Of a stretch of 64,000 nucleotides of DNA, positions 50,157 to 61,933 are shown one piece after another. The stretch comes from a candidate division WOR-3 bacterium (GTDB taxonomy: Bacteria > Hydrothermota > Tepidihabitantia > Tepidihabitantales > Tepidihabitantaceae). A program made the translations under genes and the position numbers. Numbering within the stretch: position 1 is the first letter of the stretch; the number at the start of each line of letters is the position of its first letter. Location: NCBI GenBank assembly GCA_013177935.1, contig JABLXZ010000001.1, forward strand, positions 512,191 through 576,190. Reading direction: 5' to 3'. The notes below the pieces were generated by a model. The model was not told where the DNA came from, made no database searches, and saw only the letters and a program-made list of their open reading frames with translations.

Positions 50157-51589
50157 TGACGCCGATAACTGTTCTTTTAACCATTTTAGCCCTTTTTAGT
50201 AACCCAGCCCGTTCCGTTTTTCCGGTTTTAAAAGTCGCTCAGGGCGTAAGGGCGGCAGGAATGGGTGAAGCTGGTATTGGTCTTGCCAACGACGGCAATG
50301 CCCTTTACTGGAACTCTGCTGGCTTAGCAAGCTTTTCTGACTACTCAATTTCGCTTTCTCATCAGGAGTGGTTTAGTGATACGAAAGACGAACTGTTCCA
50401 GGCGATCCTTCCGGCAAAAACCGGTGCCCTGGGTTTTGGTGTACTCTACTCCCAAACTGGTAGCATTGAACACTGGGACGCAGACAACAACCCAGGCAAC
50501 ACATTTAGCACCTGGAACGGGGTTCTTTCTCTCGGCTACGGAATTAATCTATTCTCTAATTATGCAATTGGTTTCGTTGCAAAAGGTTGCTATGAAAACC
50601 TATACCAGAGCCATGGTTACGGTGCTGGTATTGACCTGGGATTTCGGGGACAACCTTTAAAATCCCTAAGTGTGGGCATTGTCGGTCGGAACCTCGGATT
50701 GATGGACTACAACGGCATTTACACTTTACCAGCCGAAGTGGGCGCCGGTTTGTCTTACAGCCAGAAAAATTTAACAGCAGTTCTCGATGGCATTTTCTCT
50801 TTTGACCAGAAATTCAATTTCCGATTAGGGGTTGAATACACTCCGGTAAAAGAGCTCTCACTCCGTGTCGGATATCGCAGCGGACCCGAGGACATTTCCT
50901 CGCTTGGCTACCTCAGTGCTATCAGTGCGGGTATTGGTGTCAACCTAACCAATTTTTCTATTGATTACGCTCTCACCCCGTATGGTAAATTGGGACAGGT
51001 GCACCGGCTGGGACTACGCCTGACCCTGGAGCGCAAAGGCCAGGGCGTATTGAGGGTCCGGGTCTTCGATGAAGAGACAACCGAACCGGTCTGGGCAACT
51101 GTAACCATTTCCGGAGTAAAGCAGTTCCGGGGAGAAACCGGTCGCAAAGGCGAACTTTTAATTCAAGGGATTTTGCCCGGACAGATTGTCATTAACACAA
51201 TCGCCAACGGTTATCTGCCCCGAACCGATACAATGCTAATTCTTGGTGACCGAGAACAGTCCGCCGCCCTTACTCTCCGACCGATAAAATACGGCACAAT
51301 CACCGGCACACTTTACGATGCTACAACCAGCAAGCCAATTTCTGGGATTGTAACTTATCAAGGTGAGGTTTATGGCGAAACACAAACCGACCCGACCATC
51401 GGTACATTTGCAATTCGAAATATTCCTGCGGGCAAATACATCATCACAGCTAAGGGACTGGGAAACTACATTGCTCAAACCTGCACCCTTGAGTTACAGG
51501 GTGGAAAACTCCTGCGCCACGACTTTTACCTTCTAAAGCGCCTAAAGACGACCCAGCCCAATCCCAACAACAATCTTCAACGAGAATAA
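50156..51589 (+). CDS. PorV/PorQ-like outer-membrane barrel with two carboxypeptidase-regulatory-like domains
   Basis: The 477-residue protein has a signal peptide. A barrel (about 20-295) follows whose N-terminal block KVAQGVRAAGMGEAGIGLANDGNALYWNSAGLA is characteristic of the PorV/PorQ (UPF0164, FadL-like) family. Strands include SVGIVGRNLGL and LRVGYRSG. PorV is the shuttle protein of the type IX secretion system. Two carboxypeptidase-regulatory-like domains follow (about 300-380 LRVRVFDEETTEPVWATVTISG; about 383-470 GTITGTLYDATTSKPISGIV), an unusual addition. The start overlaps the upstream stop by 1 nt. The 3' end overlaps the convergent minus-strand gene by 13 nt. Confidence 0.8.
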   Translation: MTPITVLLTILALFSNPARSVFPVLKVAQGVRAAGMGEAGIGLANDGNALYWNSAGLASFSDYSISLSHQEWFSDTKDELFQAILPAKTGALGFGVLYSQTGSIEHWDADNNPGNTFSTWNGVLSLGYGINLFSNYAIGFVAKGCYENLYQSHGYGAGIDLGFRGQPLKSLSVGIVGRNLGLMDYNGIYTLPAEVGAGLSYSQKNLTAVLDGIFSFDQKFNFRLGVEYTPVKELSLRVGYRSGPEDISSLGYLSAISAGIGVNLTNFSIDYALTPYGKLGQVHRLGLRLTLERKGQGVLRVRVFDEETTEPVWATVTISGVKQFRGETGRKGELLIQGILPGQIVINTIANGYLPRTDTMLILGDREQSAALTLRPIKYGTITGTLYDATTSKPISGIVTYQGEVYGETQTDPTIGTFAIRNIPAGKYIITAKGLGNYIAQTCTLELQGGKLLRHDFYLLKRLKTTQPNPNNNLQRE

Positions 51590-54447
51590 CCAGCGCTGCC
51601 AATTATTGTCACCGTCCCGGAATCATAGTTGGCAACATAAACTTTGCTGTCAGCGGAGTTGGTACATAGCGCAATCGGCCGTTGCCCCACGGCGATCGTC
51701 TTCCGTACCGTATTGGTAGCGCAGTCAATCATATTGACCGTTTCTCCATCGTAATTAGCACAGTAAAGTTTATCAACCCAGCCCGCCCAGGTTAGACTAC
51801 GAGGATGATTGCCCACATTCATCGTCGTAACCAGAGAGTAATTCTGGGCGTTGATAACCGAAACATTGTTACTACCGGAGTTGGCAACATAGATGCGGTT
51901 GTCAACTGCGTTGTAAGCAAGCGCCCAGGGTTCGCTGCCAACATTTATCGTCGTAATCACAGCCTGATTGTTGCCATTGATAACGCTTAACTTACCAAAA
52001 AGTCGGTTCGCCACCGCAACATTGCCCTGAGCATCGACCACCAGCGCACAGGGCTGATAATCAACCCCAACCGTACCCAGCACCTGATTGGTCGCACCGT
52101 CAATGACCGTTACACTGTTGCGCGCAAAGTTAGCGCAGTACACCTTGTTGTACACCGGGTTGTAGACCAGCGCAATCGGACTGGAATCAACCGGTATCGT
52201 AGTAAGCACCTCATTGTTAGCGCCGTCAATCACCGTTACCTGGGCATTACGATAATTCGCAACATAGACACGATTATTTGTTGTATTAAAACAGAGCGCC
52301 TGTGGGAAACTACCCACATTGACCGTCGTGAGCACCTGATTCGTAGCGCCATCGATTACGGAAACTGTCCCCGCTCCATAATTACTTACATAAATCCGGC
52401 CATTTGTTGGGTTCAGGCACAGGTCGTACGGATTGGCACCAACCGAAATATTGGTTATCACCTGATTGCTCGCGCCATCAATCACCGAAACACTCGCGCT
52501 GTTATAATTGGCAACGAAAATTTTGTTGTGCAAACTGTCCCAGAGCAACGCCCGGGGCTTTGAGCCAACCGTTACCGTTGCCACTACTGTATCGGGTGTG
52601 CCACCGGTACCTGCTACGGTAAATGTTCCACTTGTTCCTTCGCTTGTATGATTGCCACAGTATGCCCGAACCCGCACCAGGGCGTTGTTAGTTGTTGGTG
52701 GTGGCACCTGCCAGACAAAGCTACCGGGCACTGTTGTTTTGCCCTGACGCGACCAGTCTGTACCGCCGTTACTCGAGTAGAAAATTACCGTTGACTCCAT
52801 CCCAAAGGTTCCGCCCGTCCAGGTAATAGTCTGGGTCGAACCAATGGTCCACCGCGCTCCAGGAGCAGGCGAAGTGACCGTAATTGGCGTTGGTGGCAGT
52901 GAGTCGTAAACAACATAACGCTGACTTGTTCCAACCGAAGAATCATTGCCCAGATAAGACCGGACCTGAACCCGGGCATTATCGGTCGCAGGACCAGGAA
53001 CGAGCCAGGTGTAACTACCCGGTGCTGTAGCCCGACCGTGCCGTATCCAATTTGCACCGTCATCTGTTGAATAATACACTGTTGTTGAATCCGGTGCTGA
53101 AGGACCACCAGTCCAGGTTACGGTTTGATTGGAACCTTCGCGCCATCTGGTTTGAGAAGTGGGTTCGGTGATTGTTATTGCCGGCAGCCCTTCAATCACC
53201 CGGAAGGTCGCGCTGAATCCGGTAGTTGCCGAATCAAGACAGTACGCCCGTACCCTGATTTTTGCCTGGTCTGTGACCGGTGCCGGCACCGTCCATAAAA
53301 ATCTTCCAGGCCGGGTTGTTTTTCCCTGCCGTGTCCAGACCAAGCCATTGTTGGTTGAATAATGAATCACCGCTGAATCCATCCCAAGAAAAGTACCGCC
53401 GGTCCAGAGAACCTCACGGGTTGAACCGATGGTCCATTCTGACAGTGAATCCGGGGAAATCACATTTATCGCAGAGGGCTTTCGTGTATCGTACACCTCA
53501 AACTGCGCCGAGGTACCGAGCATCGTATCCCGACTGATATAGCGTCGCACCTGAATCCGGGCACTGTTAGTTGGTGTCAGGTTAATTGGCAGAGTCCAGG
53601 TGTAACTGCCCGGAGCGGTTGTTCGGTCAATACGCGTCGGCCAGGTAACACCGTTATTACTTGAATAGTAAAGCACCGTGGAGTCCCCTAACAACCCACC
53701 CGTCCACCTTATCGTATAACTTGCTCCGCTCCGCCATCTCGAAGTATCGCTTGGCTCGAGAACTCTAAGCGCCGGACAGACGGAAAAGCGCCACAATGGA
53801 CCGACAACGGTGTCACCAACCTCATCACGGGCAACCACATACCAGTAATAAGTTGACTCGTACATCAAACCCGGGGGGCTGCAAAAAGTGTCGGGCAAAT
53901 TCCGGAACACAATTGCTAATGGCACCCTAATACCAAGATAAACATCATAAACAACCGTATCACCCGGGTCCGGGTCTCCACCCTTCCAGGAAAGTTTCAC
54001 CCTTGCCAGTTGATTAACCGCACCACTTTCGGGCTGAGGACGGCTTGGTACAAAAGGCAAAGTGTTTGCCCTTCGAGTTGTAAACTGGTAAACTGGACCC
54101 CAAGCGGTATCACCAAACCGGTCCCGGGCTAAAACCCTCCAGTAATAAGATGTAAGAATCGCAAGGTTATGGGGACGATAGAAGGTGTCGGTAATTCCGG
54201 TATCACGCAGCCCGGGTGGGTTTCCTGTCCCGAAATAGATATCAAAGTGCAACCTTTCATTGGTATCGGGATGGGAACAACGCCAGCGTAAAGTTACACC
54301 AGTGTCGACATTTACCGCCCCGCTCTCTGGAAAAACCGGCACCGGCCGATTGGGCGGTTTGTCAAACGGATTTCCCCATTTCCGGCAGTTATTGTTACCC
54401 AAGAACAGCAGCAAAATGAAAATTAAAATTAAAAGTCGCCTTTGTCC
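51577..54447 (-). CDS. exported protein with fibronectin/Ig-like domains and a YVTN-type propeller
   Basis: The product of about 956 residues has a hydrophobic N-terminus ending GNNNC, possibly a lipoprotein anchor. Two fibronectin-like domains (about 40-215: PVPVFPESGAVNVDTGVTLRW, RPQPESGAVNQLARVKLSW) are followed by four Ig-like units. Each contains WTGG...STVIYYSTNNG...W..P...ARVQVR (about 225-620). The C-terminal third (about 640-950) is a propeller of about 42-residue YVTN blades of the form VYVANYGS.TVSVIDGATNQVLTTI.VG..P. The ATG at 54447 lies 4 nt past the upstream stop and is preferred to an overlapping TTG at 54468. It is last in the five-gene minus cluster. No catalytic motif is visible. 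Confidence 0.82.
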   Translation of the reverse strand, partial: GQRRLLILIFILLLFLGNNNCRKWGNPFDKPPNRPVPVFPESGAVNVDTGVTLRWRCSHPDTNERLHFDIYFGTGNPPGLRDTGITDTFYRPHNLAILTSYYWRVLARDRFGDTAWGPVYQFTTRRANTLPFVPSRPQPESGAVNQLARVKLSWKGGDPDPGDTVVYDVYLGIRVPLAIVFRNLPDTFCSPPGLMYESTYYWYVVARDEVGDTVVGPLWRFSVCPALRVLEPSDTSRWRSGASYTIRWTGGLLGDSTVLYYSSNNGVTWPTRIDRTTAPGSYTWTLPINLTPTNSARIQVRRYISRDTMLGTSAQFEVYDTRKPSAINVISPDSLSEWTIGSTREVLWTGGTFLGMDSAVIHYSTNNGLVWTRQGKTTRPGRFLWTVPAPVTDQAKIRVRAYCLDSATTGFSATFRVIEGLPAITITEPTSQTRWREGSNQTVTWTGGPSAPDSTTVYYSTDDGANWIRHGRATAPGSYTWLVPGPATDNARVQVRSYLGNDSSVGTSQRYVVYDSLPPTPITVTSPAPGARWTIGSTQTITWTGGTFGMESTVIFYSSNGGTDWSRQGKTTVPGSFVWQVPPPTTNNALVRVRAYCGNHTSEGTSGTFTVAGTGGTPDTVVATVTVGSKPRALLWDSLHNKIFVANYNSASVSVIDGASNQVITNISVGANPYDLCLNPTNGRIYVSNYGAGTVSVIDGATNQVLTTVNVGSFPQALCFNTTNNRVYVANYRNAQVTVIDGANNEVLTTIPVDSSPIALVYNPVYNKVYCANFARNSVTVIDGATNQVLGTVGVDYQPCALVVDAQGNVAVANRLFGKLSVINGNNQAVITTINVGSEPWALAYNAVDNRIYVANSGSNNVSVINAQNYSLVTTMNVGNHPRSLTWAGWVDKLYCANYDGETVNMIDCATNTVRKTIAVGQRPIALCTNSADSKVYVANYDSGTVTIIGSAGYSR

Positions 54448-54451
54448 CATA

Positions 54452-55483
54452 TCACCACTGCACGACAAAATACATTCCTATGCCGACCGCCCCGATTCCC
54501 AGTGCAACATTGCGAATCATATCCCAGCGCTCGGTTTCCCGACGGTAACTGATGGCGTCCTCTTTACTTGTTGCCTGCTCGTAAAGTCCATAACTTTTTT
54601 CTCCCATTATACTGGCAGCTGCACCACCGGCAAGAAATGCGACGCCAGCAATTAACAAAGGTAACTGCCTTCTTGGTAAACGCTGCAAAGTCTCTCGAAC
54701 ATAAGTCGTTTCCCCGACTTTCACCTCAGCATAACCCAACCAGTCAACATACCCTGGTTTTGAACACATCAACGCATACCGGTCCGGTGCCAACCCAATC
54801 AGCAAATTACTCACACCAATCTTCCTGCCATTGGCAAGGACATCAGCACCGGTCGGCTTTGTTTCGACACTGAGAAACCCACGCCCCTTTCCCATTTTCA
54901 CCAGCACCCCAATCGGTCCTGGACTGTTGACCTCGACCAGTTTTGTTGCATCCTCATAACCGGAATAACGGGCTAAAATTGACCGGGAACCAAATGGCAC
55001 CTTGGACACAACCAGTCCGGTCTCAGTTGTTTTCCCTTTGTAAACCCCATCAATCCATATCTCAGCACCCACCGGGTCCGATGTAATCACCAGCGTTGCC
55101 AATCGGGCGGTGATGTTAAAACTCCCATAATATGCCCGGTATCCAGAATGACGCGCCTCAACCGTATGTTTGCCCGGACTCAAATTTTCCAGTTCCAATG
55201 GGGTCGTGCCGCGCTCAACATCGTCAATCCTTACTGTTGCGCCGGAAGGCTGCGAGGTTATCCGAACGCTATTACCGGTAACATCAATCTCCACCCGCAG
55301 TGCGGGCAAAGATGGTCTGTATTCAGGCTCAGGTAACTTCGCCCCGCACTTCTTACAGAACTTGGCGTCATCCCGGTTCACCGTACCGCAATTCGGACAA
55401 ACCTTTTCTGCCCAGGCGATGGTAAATATCAAAAGCAGAAGTAAAACTATTTTCATCAAGTTGTATTTTCTCTTCTCCCTCAT
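54452..55483 (-). CDS. exported zinc-ribbon and triple PEGA-domain protein
   Basis: The product of about 343 residues starts at the ATG at 55483, which has a perfect AGGAGG 4 nt upstream. A longer frame to 55561 would overlap the kinase-like gene. It has a signal peptide or anchor (MKIVLLLLLIFTIAWA), directly followed by a zinc ribbon CPNC...CKKC, then PEGA domains: ITSQPSGATVRIDDVERGTTPLEL, ITSDPVGAEIWIDGVYKG, VETKPTGADVLANGRKIG. A C-terminal hydrophobic pair of segments (about 290-343) ends it. PEGA domains are short envelope beta-modules often fused to kinases or peptidoglycan proteins. A zinc ribbon right behind a signal peptide is odd, since these motifs are usually cytosolic. Confidence 0.82.
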   Translation of the reverse strand: MREKRKYNLMKIVLLLLLIFTIAWAEKVCPNCGTVNRDDAKFCKKCGAKLPEPEYRPSLPALRVEIDVTGNSVRITSQPSGATVRIDDVERGTTPLELENLSPGKHTVEARHSGYRAYYGSFNITARLATLVITSDPVGAEIWIDGVYKGKTTETGLVVSKVPFGSRSILARYSGYEDATKLVEVNSPGPIGVLVKMGKGRGFLSVETKPTGADVLANGRKIGVSNLLIGLAPDRYALMCSKPGYVDWLGYAEVKVGETTYVRETLQRLPRRQLPLLIAGVAFLAGGAAASIMGEKSYGLYEQATSKEDAISYRRETERWDMIRNVALGIGAVGIGMYFVVQW

Positions 55484-55494
55484 CCAATCCTCCT

Positions 55495-56763
55495 TCAATC
55501 TACAAACCGGTAACCACACCGGGTACAGAACTGCGCTCCGGGTTCCCGTCTTGCCCCGCACTCCGGACAGGTTGCCCGCCCTCCTGCCACCTTCAATTTA
55601 ACCCCGTTCTTCGGCTTCAACCTTGTTCCGGCGCGCGGTTCGGTTCCAATCACCACACCACTACGATACTGGTCGCTGTACTCCCGCACCACAACCACAC
55701 TGTCCAGACCTGTACTACGGAGTAAATTCCGTGCCTCCGCTTCTGTCATACCCGCCAGTTCCGGGATTGCAACCAGGCCCGTGCTCAACCGTATCCTGAC
55801 CACGCCGCCCTTCTTCATCTTGGTCCCGGCAGAAGGAGACTGTTCCGCCACCTTACCCAGCGCAAAAGTATCGTCCTTATCTGCACCCAGCTCCACCCGA
55901 AAACCGGCTTCCTCCAGTTTCTTTCTCGCTTCTGCCTGATAAGCACCCACAACATCAGGAATTGGCTTACCCTGACCGCCGATAAGTAACCATCCCGCTG
56001 CCACCGCAAGAACCAGCCCCAACGGCACAATCCATACTGCTGATGAACGACGTGGTTTTTCCTGGGTAATTGGTCCGGTGGCAACAGCAGGTGCTGTCTT
56101 GGGTGGAGGAACGGGCCGCGCCGTTGACATCACCGGCTTTGGTACCGCAGCCGCAGGCTTTGGTTCAGTCGGTCGCGAGGGTGGTGCTGTTTTAACCGCT
56201 TCCCGAGGTGGTTGCTCAGGCGGTACTTGAACCGGCTTCTTCTCCGGCTCTTTAGGCACTACCGCTAATAGTGCTTTTCGAAACTCCTGGGCAGTTTGAA
56301 ACCGCTCCTCCGGCTTCTTGGCTAACGCCTTTAATATAACCTTTTCCAGCTCCGGGGAAATTTCGGCACGAATTGAACGGGGTGCGGGTGGCAACTGCTC
56401 GATGTGCGCCTTAATCAAATCCGCCCCTAATTCTGCCTCAAACGGCGGCTTTCCGGTTGCCGCTTCATAAAGGACCACACCCAGTGAATACAGGTCAGCC
56501 CGGGCATCAACACTCTTTCGCTGTGCCTTTTCCGGAGCGATGTAACGAGCGGTCCCAACCCGGGACACTCCATAATCAATCAAACGCCACACCCCGTCTT
56601 CAACCTGAACAACTTTTTTCGGCTTGATATCCCCATGCAATCGGCCCTGACTGTGTGCATGCGCCAGGTCATCAAGAATTGAAGCAAAAATATGCTCCAG
56701 CTCAGGGCTGGAAATCACCCGTCGTTCCGCAAGCAAATCAGCGAGTGTTTGCGCTCGCGCCAT
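55495..56763 (-). CDS. N-lobe-less serine/threonine kinase-like protein with TM, PASTA domains and zinc ribbon
   Basis: The 422-residue protein starts at the level of kinase helix D. The Gly-rich loop, VAIK lysine and helix C Glu are all absent. The C-lobe is recognisable (about 5-170): LHGDIKPKK at 42-50 replaces HRDLKPxN, with Asp45 kept but Arg to Gly and Asn to Lys. DYG (63-65) replaces DFG, only about 10 residues separate it from APE (76-78), and DLYSLGVVLYE is intact. A Pro-rich linker, one membrane helix (about 240-262), two PASTA domains (about 266-335, 336-400) and a C-terminal zinc ribbon CPEC...CTRC follow. It is probably a pseudokinase sensor. A promoter ends 9 nt before its ATG, so no missing upstream exon-like part exists. 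Confidence 0.85.
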   Translation of the reverse strand: MARAQTLADLLAERRVISSPELEHIFASILDDLAHAHSQGRLHGDIKPKKVVQVEDGVWRLIDYGVSRVGTARYIAPEKAQRKSVDARADLYSLGVVLYEAATGKPPFEAELGADLIKAHIEQLPPAPRSIRAEISPELEKVILKALAKKPEERFQTAQEFRKALLAVVPKEPEKKPVQVPPEQPPREAVKTAPPSRPTEPKPAAAVPKPVMSTARPVPPPKTAPAVATGPITQEKPRRSSAVWIVPLGLVLAVAAGWLLIGGQGKPIPDVVGAYQAEARKKLEEAGFRVELGADKDDTFALGKVAEQSPSAGTKMKKGGVVRIRLSTGLVAIPELAGMTEAEARNLLRSTGLDSVVVVREYSDQYRSGVVIGTEPRAGTRLKPKNGVKLKVAGGRATCPECGARREPGAQFCTRCGYRFVD

Positions 56764-56772
56764 TCTATTTAC

Positions 56773-56800
56773 AGGATAACAACAACTTAAGAAATGTCAA
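56773..56800 (-). promoter_or_regulatory. promoter for kinase-like gene, near-leaderless
   Basis: On the minus strand TTGACA (56800-56795), 16-nt spacer, TATCCT (56778-56773), then 9 nt to the ATG at 56763. There is no Shine-Dalgarno. It lies between the TPR gene stop and the kinase-like gene. Confidence 0.65.
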
Positions 56801-56817
56801 GGATTTATCCACCACAG

Positions 56818-58485
56818 TTATCGCACCGCACCCGGCTCAAAATCGGTGGTTGTCTTTAATAACAGATTGCGCGCCAGCGGCGCATAAGGTGAACCAGGAA
56901 ATTCAAGAACGATTCGCTCAACGGTCGCCCGAAATCGGCTTTCGTCCCGCAGATTGTCGCGATAAATCTCTGCCTGCTTAAGAAGCGCCCGCGCCGCCCG
57001 TTCACTCTTGGGAAATCGAGCAATTAATGAGTCCAGAACCGTCAACGCCTCGCGGTATTTCCCCTCCTGACAGAAAATCTGGGACAGAAGAAAAAAAGCT
57101 TCCTGTGCCACCGCATCGTTTTCCCGGGTTAACTCCTGTGCCCGTTTTCGGCTCGCCTCAACCGCACCAGCGTCAAGGTCAAACATCGCCTTTGCCAGTT
57201 CTAAACACCTATCGCCGCTCAGTGTCAGCACCCCCAGTTCCAGGGCATCATTTGCCAGCAAACTTTGCGGGAATCGGGCATTAACATCCCGAACCAACAC
57301 CCGAACCGAGTCAAACTTCCCCTGATAGAAAAGAACCTTCGCCTGCAGAAAAAGCACACTGTCATCCGGTGATTCAACTCTTGCCAGCACCTGACGGGCG
57401 CTGTCCAGTTGCCTTAAACCGAGCAGCGATGCTGCCAGCCCTACAAGCGCCCCTTTGTCTTGGGGTCTTTTCTTTAAAACATCACAATACCCTTGCGCCG
57501 CACCTTTAAAATCCCGCTTCTCCAGCCGGGCGTACTCCGCATATTCAAACCTTGCCGCAACACTGGTGTCCTTTGCCAGAAGCGCCAGCGCCTCATCAAT
57601 CCTGCCCATCTTACGCAGAACTCTTGCCGCATCCGCACTCAACCCCTGCTCCTCGTAAATTGCCAGTGCCGCGCGCCATGCCCCTTTCTTTTCACACCCC
57701 CGGGCAAAATTTACCCTTTCCAACGGGTTCAAACCTTGCTCGATTATCCGCACTGCACCCAGTTCATCACCCGCACCAATCCTAACCTCAGCCTGCGCCC
57801 TTAACCGAATCGACTCGTCCTTGATTTTACTCAAAGCATTCAATACCCCCTTAACCTCACCACTCCTGCCATAACTGTTGAGCCGCTCCAGAAACTTATT
57901 AACCCGGCGTGGGTCATAATTAACAATTTCAACCAGCTTTTCGGTCGCGGCAACAAACCTGCCTTGCATCTCATATATCTCCACTAACTTTTCGGCATAA
58001 TCAACTCGAAACCCATTGCGCCGCAATGCCTCTTCAAGATACTGTCCTGCCCAACCCTTTTCACCACCCCGCAGGACCGTTTCCACCAACTCCATAACCC
58101 GTCCGGGCCACTTTTCGAAAAATTGCTGTGCCCGCTCCCGCGCCGCACCTTTTTTCTTTAAACCAAGTAGCGCCTCGATTGTGCCCAGAACCACATCACC
58201 GTTATCCGGCAGAACACCTTCCAGCCGCTGTAAAATCGTAAGCAACGAGTCAAACCTTCCCAGTTGCCGGCTCACCCTTACTATGCCCAAAAGCGCCTGC
58301 CGGTCCAAAGGGTTTTTCTCAAGTGTTGTTTTGTAAACAGTCCATGCCTGCTCAAACTGCCCAGCCTGTTCCAGCATCTGACCTTTAAGCCCATCCTGGG
58401 CAAACAGTGGGGCAGTAAAAATTGTTAGTGCAACTATAAGCAGAAAAAACTTAACCGCCTCCCGCTCTGTCTTCTTTTGCCTCAT
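56818..58485 (-). CDS. exported TPR-repeat protein
   Basis: The 555-residue protein has a basic N-terminus and a signal peptide ending LFAQ (about residue 29). TPR-like helical repeats run through about residue 540: GQFEQAWTVYKTTLEKNPLDRQALLGIV, GKYREALTVLDSLIARFPKSERAARALLKQAEIYRD. The last part resembles the YbgF/BamD-type tetratricopeptides that work in the periplasm. It overlaps the upstream coiled-coil gene by 4 nt (start 58485, upstream stop at 58482), so translation is coupled and the two products probably act together. There is no enzymatic motif. Confidence 0.84.
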   Translation of the reverse strand: MRQKKTEREAVKFFLLIVALTIFTAPLFAQDGLKGQMLEQAGQFEQAWTVYKTTLEKNPLDRQALLGIVRVSRQLGRFDSLLTILQRLEGVLPDNGDVVLGTIEALLGLKKKGAARERAQQFFEKWPGRVMELVETVLRGGEKGWAGQYLEEALRRNGFRVDYAEKLVEIYEMQGRFVAATEKLVEIVNYDPRRVNKFLERLNSYGRSGEVKGVLNALSKIKDESIRLRAQAEVRIGAGDELGAVRIIEQGLNPLERVNFARGCEKKGAWRAALAIYEEQGLSADAARVLRKMGRIDEALALLAKDTSVAARFEYAEYARLEKRDFKGAAQGYCDVLKKRPQDKGALVGLAASLLGLRQLDSARQVLARVESPDDSVLFLQAKVLFYQGKFDSVRVLVRDVNARFPQSLLANDALELGVLTLSGDRCLELAKAMFDLDAGAVEASRKRAQELTRENDAVAQEAFFLLSQIFCQEGKYREALTVLDSLIARFPKSERAARALLKQAEIYRDNLRDESRFRATVERIVLEFPGSPYAPLARNLLLKTTTDFEPGAVR

Positions 58486-61400
58486 CGTTCCTCCAGAAGC
58501 CGCTCAAAATAGGAACGAATCAACCTCTCGTACTCCCTGGGATAACCCTGCTTTAACGCCCGCAACAACTCTTCGCGCAAAACCTTATTGCGCTCCCCGA
58601 AATCGTCAGGAAGTTCGGGCAACACCTCAATCCGATACTCCTTTCCTGTCTCAGCCTGCCGCTCCTCCTTAAAACCTTGCTGGCGCAAACTGCGCTCCGC
58701 ATCAAGCATCCGGGACAGGATACCTTCCTGACGCTCAATCAACTTTCGGTCAATCTGGAGCTCGCTTAGCGCCCGCTCCACCGCCTTCATCTCCTCAACT
58801 AACTGGTCCAGCCTGCCGGTTAAACCGGGTCTTTGTCCGCCCATTGATTGGAGCAACCTCTCCAGTTGTTCGCGTAATGCCGCCTGCTGCGCCAGCAACC
58901 TTTGCAACTGCTCCATCTGCCCGGCGCTCAAACCCGAAACCGGTATAGGAATCGGGATACCTGACATTCCGGCATTTATCGCCATCTGTTCCGCGGTCAT
59001 CTGGGAAAGCTGTTCCAACAAACTCTGTAACCCGCCCTTCATTCCGCCGCCCTGCGCCGCCTGTGCCGCAGCATCAAGCACCATCGAAACTGACCGATTC
59101 AAACTCATCCGTGCCTGGGTCATCTGCCCTTTTCCTGTACCAGCGGCACCGGCTGATAGCATCTCCGCCGCACTCTTCATATGGTTGATTACCCGGGCAA
59201 GTTGCTGCACCATCTCCGGTGACACGATAAGTGTTTGTGCCCCGAGCGCGGCCAGACTTTCCGCCACCAAACGGGTTGCCTCAAGCAACCCCATCTCCTC
59301 CGGGGCAAGGTGCGCCGGATTCGCCTTTTCTGCCAGCCTGTTTTCCAGACCCTCCTGTGCCTGCGACACCTTCAACAAGGCGTCCGACGCCGAAATAAGT
59401 TTACGCATCACCTCTTCAGAACGACGGCGCTTTAACCCCTCACTCAACCGCTCCAGATTTTCGGCAAGCTCCTTAAAACCGCGCTCCAGTTTCTCGCTCT
59501 TCTGCAGCGCCATTTGCTGCTCGCCCCTGCCCAGTTGACTTTGCAACTCCTGCGCCAATTGCTCTAATCCGTTCTGGGCAATCTTTTCGTTAAGCGCATT
59601 CAGTGAATCGGCAATTACCGCCTCCGGTAACTCGGCTGCCAGTTTATTTAACTCGGTCCGCAAACTGTCAAACGACTGATTGATTTTTGCCTGCTTCTGC
59701 GCCAGCTCCTCAGAAACACCATTTTTTAGTTCTCGGCTTACATCCTCCTGCGTCTTCTGCAACTCCTTTGCCTGCCGCGCCAGCGCCTCAAGCCGCTCCT
59801 CCTCCATTATCCTTTTCAACAGCTCCAGAGCACGCTCAATGTTCTCCTTAAATCTCTCCTGCTCCAGTTGCACCCTTTCCAGCACCTGCCGGACATCAGG
59901 CGCCCTTTCCCCTAATTTCTGTGCCAGCTCACCAAGCGCCTTCTGCAACTCCTGGGGCAAAACCCGGGAAAGCAACTCCTGCAACTGCTCCAGCCGCTCG
60001 CGGGTCTCCGGGACATAACTCATACCCTGAACCATCTCATCAATCGTTCGGGCAATCTCCTGTTTCAGCGCCTCAACCTGACCGAGCAGTTGCTTCTGCT
60101 CCTCCAGCAAACCCTCCAGCCGCTTTTTCTCCTCCCAGGACAACTCCCTTGACCTTTTCAACTCCTCGCCAATGCGCGTCAACTGGGAGTTTAACTCTTC
60201 CTGCTTCGCCTCCAGTGGTGTTAGCTCCTCCTGGGTTGTTCGGGTCTTTTCCACCGCCGCTGAATAAATCTCGGTCATTGTTGGAAACCGTATTGAGAAC
60301 ACATCGCTTTTCGTCATTTTCGGACCGGAAATCAGGTCGTTGTCTCTTACCTCAACATAGTAGCGCAGCACCTCTCCGGGCAGGAGTCCGGATGAAGAAA
60401 GGTTCCAGACATAGAGCGTCGTATCTTCCCGCTCGCCCGAAAATCTCTTCAGTCGCACCACCTCGTTGATACTGTCCTTGCCGTAATGCAGTGTCAAATC
60501 GGTCAGCCCGTAATCGTCAATACTGTTTATTCCTAAAAGCACCTGCATACTCATCGGCAGGTCAATATCCCGTCCTGGTCTAAACACCTTGACAAATGGT
60601 GCCTCATCCGGCAGGAGCCGCAACTGTATCCGCGCCACCTTCTGCACCGCTTCACCCTGAACCGGCACTAACTCTATCCCGATTTCACCCTCACCCTGCG
60701 CCACAAACTCGGCTCTAATCCGGGTCGGCGTTTTCCGGTCAACCGTCACCATTGTTGTCTCCGAAGCAAAAACCAACCTGCCATCCGCAACTGCTTGACT
60801 CGCCTCGCCCTCAAGAACCACTCGCGTCCCTTTCAGAACGATTAACTCCTCACCCCGTACTTCGCTTTCAGGCAGACGGACGTACGCGGGCGGTTGACAG
60901 CGCAAAACCATCCGGCGCAAAGTCAAAGGTGCGATTAAGCCCACCCGAAACCAGTCTGAACTCTTACCGAGAACCCGAAACCGATAACTCATCCCCTCGC
61001 GCACCGCAAAATCTACCCAATTTCCGGACAGAACGATAGAGCGCTGCGCGCCGTTGTCCTCTCTTATTTCCATCCGCACTCGTTCAAAAACCCCCTCAGG
61101 TTGCACGTGAACGGAAAAGGTCACCACATCGCCCGCCATAACCATCGTATCGCCTGGCGCAACCTGAAACTTTACTTCTAATCGGCACGGAGTGAAACCA
61201 TTTTTCAACCCGACCGCAAACCGTTCGCCCCCCACTGCAATAAACCCGAAAAGTGAACCTAACCAGCCGACCGCATACATCCCACACAAAAATATTCGCC
61301 ACTTAGAAACCAGACTCTTTTTTGGCCTATCGCGCAACAGCTCCTCAACCTGCGCCACCGCCGCATCGCGCAACTCCATTGAATAACCCTCAACGCCTCC

Positions 61401-61742
61401 CTGATATCTAAGTAACTCCAGAGCGGCAACAACCCGACCTTTTAACTCCGGAAAAACCCGTTCAAGTTTATATGCTACCGCTTTAATTCTAACTTCTTTA
61501 AACCAGTCCCAGACAAAAAAGATGGTTAAGGGCGTCAGGAACAAGAGCACCGCCCAACCCGAAAGGAAAAAAAGGGCACTGAGAACTATCCCCATAGCAG
61601 CAACACCGATTGCCAGAAAGAAGGTGGACAGTAAAACATTGACGAGCACCGCCCGCTGCGCCCGGCGTATTTCCTTAATTAAAATAGTACCCTCGCCCCT
61701 TGCGGGAGAAAGTAGGGTGAAGGGAAAAATCTTGCGCTTCAT
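58482..61742 (-). CDS. giant membrane-anchored coiled-coil protein (DUF4175-like)
   Basis: The product of about 1086 residues has two hydrophobic segments near the N-terminus (about 30-80, FFLAIGVAAMGIVLSALFFL and following) and another near 160-180. A beta-rich region (about 195-480) contains LPDEAPFVKVFRPGRDIDLP and a LRYYVEVRDND strand. A very long Gln/Glu/Leu-rich coiled-coil (about 500-1060) is interrupted by a Gly/Met-rich stretch (about 860-930). The layout resembles DUF4175 proteins of Bacteroidetes-type genomes, of unknown function. The ATG at 61742 with GAGG upstream is preferred to a TTG at 61769. The first codons encode a REP-like DNA element (61690-61724). Confidence 0.75.
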   Translation of the reverse strand: MKRKIFPFTLLSPARGEGTILIKEIRRAQRAVLVNVLLSTFFLAIGVAAMGIVLSALFFLSGWAVLLFLTPLTIFFVWDWFKEVRIKAVAYKLERVFPELKGRVVAALELLRYQGGVEGYSMELRDAAVAQVEELLRDRPKKSLVSKWRIFLCGMYAVGWLGSLFGFIAVGGERFAVGLKNGFTPCRLEVKFQVAPGDTMVMAGDVVTFSVHVQPEGVFERVRMEIREDNGAQRSIVLSGNWVDFAVREGMSYRFRVLGKSSDWFRVGLIAPLTLRRMVLRCQPPAYVRLPESEVRGEELIVLKGTRVVLEGEASQAVADGRLVFASETTMVTVDRKTPTRIRAEFVAQGEGEIGIELVPVQGEAVQKVARIQLRLLPDEAPFVKVFRPGRDIDLPMSMQVLLGINSIDDYGLTDLTLHYGKDSINEVVRLKRFSGEREDTTLYVWNLSSSGLLPGEVLRYYVEVRDNDLISGPKMTKSDVFSIRFPTMTEIYSAAVEKTRTTQEELTPLEAKQEELNSQLTRIGEELKRSRELSWEEKKRLEGLLEEQKQLLGQVEALKQEIARTIDEMVQGMSYVPETRERLEQLQELLSRVLPQELQKALGELAQKLGERAPDVRQVLERVQLEQERFKENIERALELLKRIMEEERLEALARQAKELQKTQEDVSRELKNGVSEELAQKQAKINQSFDSLRTELNKLAAELPEAVIADSLNALNEKIAQNGLEQLAQELQSQLGRGEQQMALQKSEKLERGFKELAENLERLSEGLKRRRSEEVMRKLISASDALLKVSQAQEGLENRLAEKANPAHLAPEEMGLLEATRLVAESLAALGAQTLIVSPEMVQQLARVINHMKSAAEMLSAGAAGTGKGQMTQARMSLNRSVSMVLDAAAQAAQGGGMKGGLQSLLEQLSQMTAEQMAINAGMSGIPIPIPVSGLSAGQMEQLQRLLAQQAALREQLERLLQSMGGQRPGLTGRLDQLVEEMKAVERALSELQIDRKLIERQEGILSRMLDAERSLRQQGFKEERQAETGKEYRIEVLPELPDDFGERNKVLREELLRALKQGYPREYERLIRSYFERLLEER
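61690..61724. repeat. REP-like palindromic element inside the coding start of the coiled-coil gene
   Basis: CCCTCGCCCCTTGCGGGAG followed by AAAGTAGGGTGAAGGG resembles the dispersed CCCTC(T)CCC...GGGAG...GGGTGAGGG repeats of many bacterial genomes. In frame on the minus strand it gives FTLLSPARGEGT, the typical translated-repeat peptide. Only one copy is in this window. Confidence 0.45.
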
Positions 61743-61933
61743 TTGCCTCAATTTAAATAGTACCCGCAAACCTCTAAGATTGCAACATCAACAGGGCACG
61801 ACTCTCTTTATCTCTTTACTGCTCCACTATTAAGAAACAAACCTGCAGTACCGCTCAACTTCCTCAGATTTTACCTTCTCCTTTTAACTTGACTTAACTC
61901 GGCGACACCTTAACCTTTTTATACCAGAACACA

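Follow-up and report, generated by a model that had tools for sequence, protein, structure and literature searches.

The window, meaning the whole stretch of 64,000 nucleotides of WOR-3 DNA that was analysed, contains on its minus strand an ORF encoding a protein in which a kinase C-lobe without an N-lobe is joined to PASTA domains and a zinc ribbon. The features of the region are listed below with the basis of each assignment in brackets where one applies.

55495..56763, minus strand: PASTA C-lobe-only pseudokinase, entire ORF (ATG, 422 aa; alignment of 14 family members)
56266..56757, minus strand: kinase C-lobe, aa 3-166 (Pfam Pkinase, AlphaFold2, Foldseek)
56629..56637, minus strand: HGD, the HRD equivalent, aa 43-45 (family alignment)
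56569..56577, minus strand: DYG, the DFG equivalent, aa 63-65 (family alignment)
55981..56040, minus strand: transmembrane helix, approximately aa 242-261 (sequence; AlphaFold2 helix 248-261)
55573..55962, minus strand: two PASTA domains, aa 268-397 (Pfam PF03793, two stretches)
55507..55569, minus strand: zinc ribbon, CPxC ... FCxxC, aa 399-419 (PF13240)
56795..56800, minus strand: -35 element TTGACA, the TGA of which is an in-frame upstream stop (sequence)
56773..56778, minus strand: -10 element TATCCT, ending 9 nt before the ATG (sequence)
54452..55486, minus strand: PEGA partner with a signal sequence, zinc ribbon, three PEGA domains and C-terminal hydrophobic segments (Pfam)
51577..54468, minus strand: probable lipoprotein partner with Ig/Fn3-like repeats and a YVTN beta-propeller
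56818..58485, minus strand: upstream neighbour, a secreted TPR protein in a separate unit
58482..61769, minus strand: upstream neighbour, a 1095-aa membrane protein with a coiled coil

The Pkinase model (PF00069) matched the 422-aa protein with 87.4 bits against a gathering cut-off of 31.7 (E 1.4e-24). The match joined aa 3-159 to model positions 81-256 of 263. An HMM alignment had been suggested in the earlier note, which held that the frame begins at helix D with no N-lobe, and the alignment bore this out as it covers the C-lobe only. The C-lobe is made up of helices D (aa 7-14), E (aa 19-38), F (aa 87-103), G (aa 113-122), H (aa 137-146) and I (aa 158-166), with the catalytic loop and b7-b8 between helices E and F. 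The PASTA domain pair was matched in Pfam at E 5.4e-29, and Foldseek aligned this part of the protein with the PknB PASTA structure 5e10. Together with the PF13240 match, these hits confirmed the fusion to PASTA domains and a zinc ribbon read earlier from the sequence. All four cysteines of the zinc ribbon are invariant in the 14 family members. The nearest NCBIfam model, that for Stk1/PknB PASTA kinases (NF033483), aligned aa 5-397 with model positions 92-499 at 252.6 bits, which is below its equivalog cut-off of 450. The PASTA repeats follow the transmembrane helix, as in NF033483 kinases. This single helix (approximately aa 242-261) was absent from the earlier description of the protein. 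It lies between the linker and the PASTA domains, with Lys and Arg residues on its N-terminal side. The C-lobe should be cytoplasmic, with the PASTA domains and zinc ribbon outside.

Strands b1-b5 and helix C are missing from the protein in the Pfam Pkinase alignment. The Gly loop, the b3 Lys and the helix C Glu are absent here and in the other 13 family members. An in-frame stop lies 12 codons 5' of the ATG, overlapping the -35 element, and the intergenic gap to the preceding gene is 54 bp. Upstream in-frame stops were found in all 14 family members; those of G006 and G010 are just two codons ahead of the ATG.

The active-site motifs were as the earlier note had described them, namely HGD, KPKK (aa 47-50, the KPxN equivalent), DYG and a DYG-to-APE distance of about 10 residues. 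The HxD His and Asp (D45 here) are invariant in 14 of 14. The DFG Asp is present in the DYG of this protein and is kept in eight of the 14, with Gly, Glu or Arg in the other six, while the Phe is replaced by Tyr in 13. The KPxN Lys is kept in most members and the Asn in just one. Also invariant across the 14 are the GT of the P+1 loop, the PE of APE and the helix F Asp. DFG and APE are separated by 10 residues in 13 of 14 proteins including this one and by 16 in G004, and every full-length kinase measured has at least 23 there. The resulting activation segment is, by its length, too short for the usual phosphorylated Thr. Motif decay had been put forward as a sign of a dead kinase and holds for the KPxN Asn, but not for the HxD Asp, which is invariant, nor for the DFG Asp, which is present here. 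It is the missing N-lobe and not the motif changes that almost certainly rules out catalysis. Normal ATP binding and phosphate transfer would not be expected because the Gly loop, b3 Lys, helix C and hinge are missing, and a bilobal cleft presumably cannot form. In the available text of a 2025 review, a pseudokinase is defined as being without at least one of the b3 Lys, HRD Asp and DFG Asp (PMC12599244). On that definition the protein is a pseudokinase through loss of the b3 Lys.

The truncated form was sought in related genomes, as the earlier note had proposed, and an N-lobe-less protein of the same architecture was found in 14 of the 18 genomes that belong to this WOR-3 family, the present one included. 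These proteins share 40-80% identity with the 422-aa protein and occur in all seven genera (7/7) of the family. An orthologue with a full N-lobe at the same locus was also looked for and none was seen among the 14 family members. In genome G009 the C-terminal 44 residues are present at the edge of a contig, and the PEGA gene comes next. In G014 the contig ends within the TPR gene, hence no C-lobe gene is visible, and G013 and G017 (2/18) lack the gene. A profile built from the 14 proteins scored all 14 at 247 bits or more and gave no comparable match in the other 47 genomes of the class, where scores were at most 167 bits. A scan of 80 loci on genome contigs found no C-lobe-only form outside WOR-3. 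The non-WOR-3 loci in the scan were canonical PASTA kinases with an N-lobe, mostly from Coriobacteriia. In these kinases HxD comes at least 130 residues after the start of the frame, and one of the loci was cut by a contig end.

In a tree of C-lobe sequences the 14 proteins formed one clade (support 100/99), which adjoins full-length kinases of the class including the PASTA kinases L048 and L170. Because the 14 group together beside full-length PASTA kinases, the simplest history would be that a PASTA kinase lost its N-lobe on one occasion, in the WOR-3 family's ancestor. L048 has an odd PASTA topology of its own. This full-length kinase of 1490 aa (L048:5737-10209, G021 contig C4) carries a long PASTA array placed between the kinase domain and a late transmembrane helix, and has a TonB-like C-terminus.

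The gene has its own promoter, as had been claimed from the TTGACA-N16-TATCCT sequence ending 9 nt before the ATG, and the promoter is conserved in the family. When the 70 nt upstream were shuffled, an equal match occurred in 0.8% of the shuffles. All 14 family members have TTGACA-N16-TATnCT or a close variant ahead of the gene. In 11 of the 14 genomes a promoter like TTGACA-N16-TATnCT is no more than 70 nt from the start, and its score was equalled in at most 2.2% of shuffles for 10 of these 11 and in 9.4% for G011. The three genomes of genus g3 have TTGCAC-N16-TACAAT approximately 110 nt upstream. Nothing comparable was found at the starts of the TPR and PEGA genes of the same loci using simple base shuffles. 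In five genomes 6-9 nt separate the end of the -10 element from the ATG (56764-56800 of the window, minus strand), therefore the mRNA in these WOR-3 bacteria would be almost leaderless.

Loci with assembled flanks have the genes in the order coiled-coil protein, TPR, C-lobe, PEGA/zinc-ribbon and Fn3/beta-propeller lipoprotein. The PEGA gene adjoins the C-lobe gene wherever that flank is assembled, and the gene for the coiled-coil protein, which had no match in Pfam or NCBIfam, is directly 5' of the TPR gene wherever that flank is assembled. G013 and G017 lack the C-lobe, PEGA and lipoprotein genes together and keep the coiled-coil and TPR pair. In these two genomes the TPR gene is directly followed by a gene of approximately 450 aa, glutamate-dehydrogenase-like by eye, which in G004 and G016 follows the lipoprotein gene. 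The joint absence in G013 and G017 and the position of the promoter suggest that the C-lobe, PEGA and lipoprotein genes are a three-gene envelope unit. The zinc ribbon of the PEGA protein comes straight after its signal sequence and is the second apparently extracytoplasmic zinc ribbon at the locus beside that of the C-lobe protein.

Selection was compared along the protein between G000 and G001. The dN/dS of the C-lobe was 0.043 (NG86) and 0.071 (YN00); the PASTA domains with the zinc ribbon gave 0.12-0.13 and the linker gave 0.20-0.40. By NG86 the C-lobe value is about one third of the ectodomain value and by YN00 it is half, and being the lowest it marks the C-lobe as the part held tightest by selection. 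Structure prediction was also carried out as earlier proposed. In an AlphaFold2 model made from a 20-row alignment with no templates, most of the length of helices D to I had pLDDT values of 91-98, and block means were 77-83 at the N-terminus and in the short activation segment. The predicted C-lobe is PknB-like, and Foldseek superposed it on Mycobacterium tuberculosis PknB at 1.1-2.5 A over 165-177 columns. Judging by the model, the C-lobe should fold alone.

A frameshift, a misassembly, a wrong start or a decaying pseudogene was considered as the source of the short frame. Such errors do occur, as a real frameshifted kinase exists in the related genome G021 (L178). At L178, however, the N-lobe can be read in the next frame, while the 422-aa ORF is preceded by 54 bp of intergenic DNA and by a stop. 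The short form is common to fourteen genomes and purifying selection is strong. A frameshift or wrong start is excluded by the upstream stops and the contrast with L178, and a decaying pseudogene is excluded by the dN/dS values, leaving an artefact of any of these kinds a negligible chance. The earlier assertion that the truncation is no frameshift was upheld by the 14 members without an N-lobe, the stops upstream of all of them and their single clade. That it is fixed and selected is indicated by the conserved promoter and the C-lobe dN/dS of 0.04-0.07. The split kinase of G021 lies at L178:1284-1560 (contig C13), with its N-lobe in the neighbouring frame.

The only complete Ser/Thr kinase in the genome is a protein of 1749 aa (L049:6499-11748, G000 contig C2) which by eye comprises kinase, AAA ATPase, TPR, GAF and sigma-54 activator parts. 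Similarly long STPK-sigma54 kinases are found in most genomes of the WOR-3 family. The Pkinase profile, run against the genome with E values of up to 10 allowed, hit the complete kinase and the C-lobe protein only, although a very divergent N-lobe could escape it. It gave no candidate for an N-lobe supplied in trans from the same genome. No match was found in the genome to FHA (PF00498) or to the PP2C_2 phosphatase (PF13672). As there is only one other kinase and neither FHA nor PP2C_2 gave a match, a classical PASTA-kinase cascade is not apparent from the genome sequence.

The C-lobe protein is probably a dead member of the PASTA-kinase lineage, left without an N-lobe by one loss in an ancestor of the WOR-3 family and kept since as a membrane receptor-scaffold. 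The strict retention of the C-lobe after loss of the N-lobe suggests a docking platform and not an enzyme. We infer this docking-scaffold role from the PASTA domains and by analogy with other pseudokinases. The PASTA pair and zinc ribbon, outside the membrane, would bind peptidoglycan or its precursors and/or neighbouring envelope proteins, and such binding would bring the protein to places where the wall is growing or damaged. In Mycobacterium tuberculosis the localisation of PknB is set by the lipid II that its PASTA domains bind (PMC6428115). The zinc ribbons of the C-lobe and PEGA proteins may meet outside the membrane. On the cytoplasmic side, the intact face of the C-lobe formed by the P+1 loop and helices F, G and H would be the docking surface, and a client would be recruited through this substrate-side surface with no phosphorylation. 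Helix G is given as an established protein-contact element in the available text of the 2025 review (PMC12599244) and is intact in the C-lobe protein. The invariant HxD His and Asp are not obviously needed by a pure scaffold and may have a structural role.

Three further readings keep the protein functional and assign the C-lobe another part. The leading rival, which we regard as unlikely, is that the C-lobe docks on the complete kinase by helix G or the P+1 surface and relays the envelope signal to it, so that the output is phosphorylation. Pairing of a pseudokinase with a kinase is common in known systems, a long STPK-sigma54 kinase is available in most genomes of the family and the C-lobe is strongly conserved, all of which would fit such an allosteric partnership. 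Against it, the genes for the C-lobe protein and the long kinase are unlinked, and G013 has the long kinase yet no C-lobe gene. Less probable again is that the ectodomain does the work with the PEGA and propeller proteins, the C-lobe being an inert cytoplasmic anchor or dimerising plug. The three-gene unit is indeed mostly extracytoplasmic and the cysteines of the zinc ribbon are invariant, but the C-lobe is the most constrained part of the protein and such tight constraint is unexpected for a plug.

A split kinase, in which the C-lobe forms an active enzyme with an N-lobe in trans or by swapping onto the N-lobe of the complete kinase, appears very unlikely. It would account for the HxD Asp (14/14) and for the DFG Asp and KPxN Lys that are kept in most members, and the genome does hold one complete kinase (STPK-AAA-TPR-GAF-sigma54, 1749 aa). 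However, the Pkinase search at E up to 10 found that kinase and the C-lobe protein only, the KPxN Asn is lost in 13/14 and the DFG Asp in 6/14, and the activation segment is too short for the usual phosphorylated Thr.

The PASTA kinases PknB, PrkC, Stk1 and StkP (NF033483) share with the C-lobe protein the C-lobe fold, the single transmembrane helix, the extracytoplasmic PASTA domains and the domain order. The C-lobe protein differs from them in having no N-lobe, b3 Lys or helix C, in its added zinc ribbon and in an activation loop of 10 residues where theirs has 23 or more. EssB/YukC of type VIIb secretion is likewise a single-pass membrane pseudokinase scaffold with a shortened activation loop, but as presented in the available text of the review it has a degraded Gly loop and so keeps the N-lobe, has no PASTA domains and belongs to a T7SS context (PMC12599244). 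In the same text ActPs3/MviN is a pseudokinase tied to peptidoglycan control through recruitment, and its dimer interface is in the N-lobe which the C-lobe protein lacks (PMC12599244). Loss of a whole kinase-fold element is also reported there for ActPs1, approximately 60% of whose members have lost helix G, whereas the C-lobe protein keeps helix G and drops the N-lobe (PMC12599244). In human PLK5 the kinase domain is truncated at its N-terminus and the protein is functional (PMC10669931); the truncation involves a stop codon and restart in human and not in mouse. In the C-lobe protein, unlike PLK5, the loss is at the lobe boundary and is fixed across a bacterial family.

Seven bacterial pseudokinase families, ActPs1-3, GLW, CP1, DYD and DLHK, are set out in the available text of the 2025 review, each by family-specific residue patterns in a two-lobed kinase domain (PMC12599244). 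None of the seven is described there as N-lobe-less (PMC12599244). In the open-access literature nothing apt was found on a bacterial kinase without an N-lobe, and no case was found of a PASTA kinase whose N-lobe is missing across a clade.

The usual mark of pseudokinases is changed residues within a complete two-lobed fold. Here a bacterial family retains exactly one lobe, and retains it more strictly than the rest of the protein. With about even confidence, the kinase lobes would be separable in evolution, and the lone C-lobe would be a stable, selected, membrane-tethered docking receptor for cell-wall status, founding a bacterial family of pseudokinases whose defining trait is the loss of a lobe, not the decay of motifs. 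The non-catalytic roles of PASTA kinases, localisation and recruitment, are hard to separate from phosphorylation. The WOR-3 family would offer a natural experiment in which docking is split from catalysis, with the C-lobe as a small testable domain.
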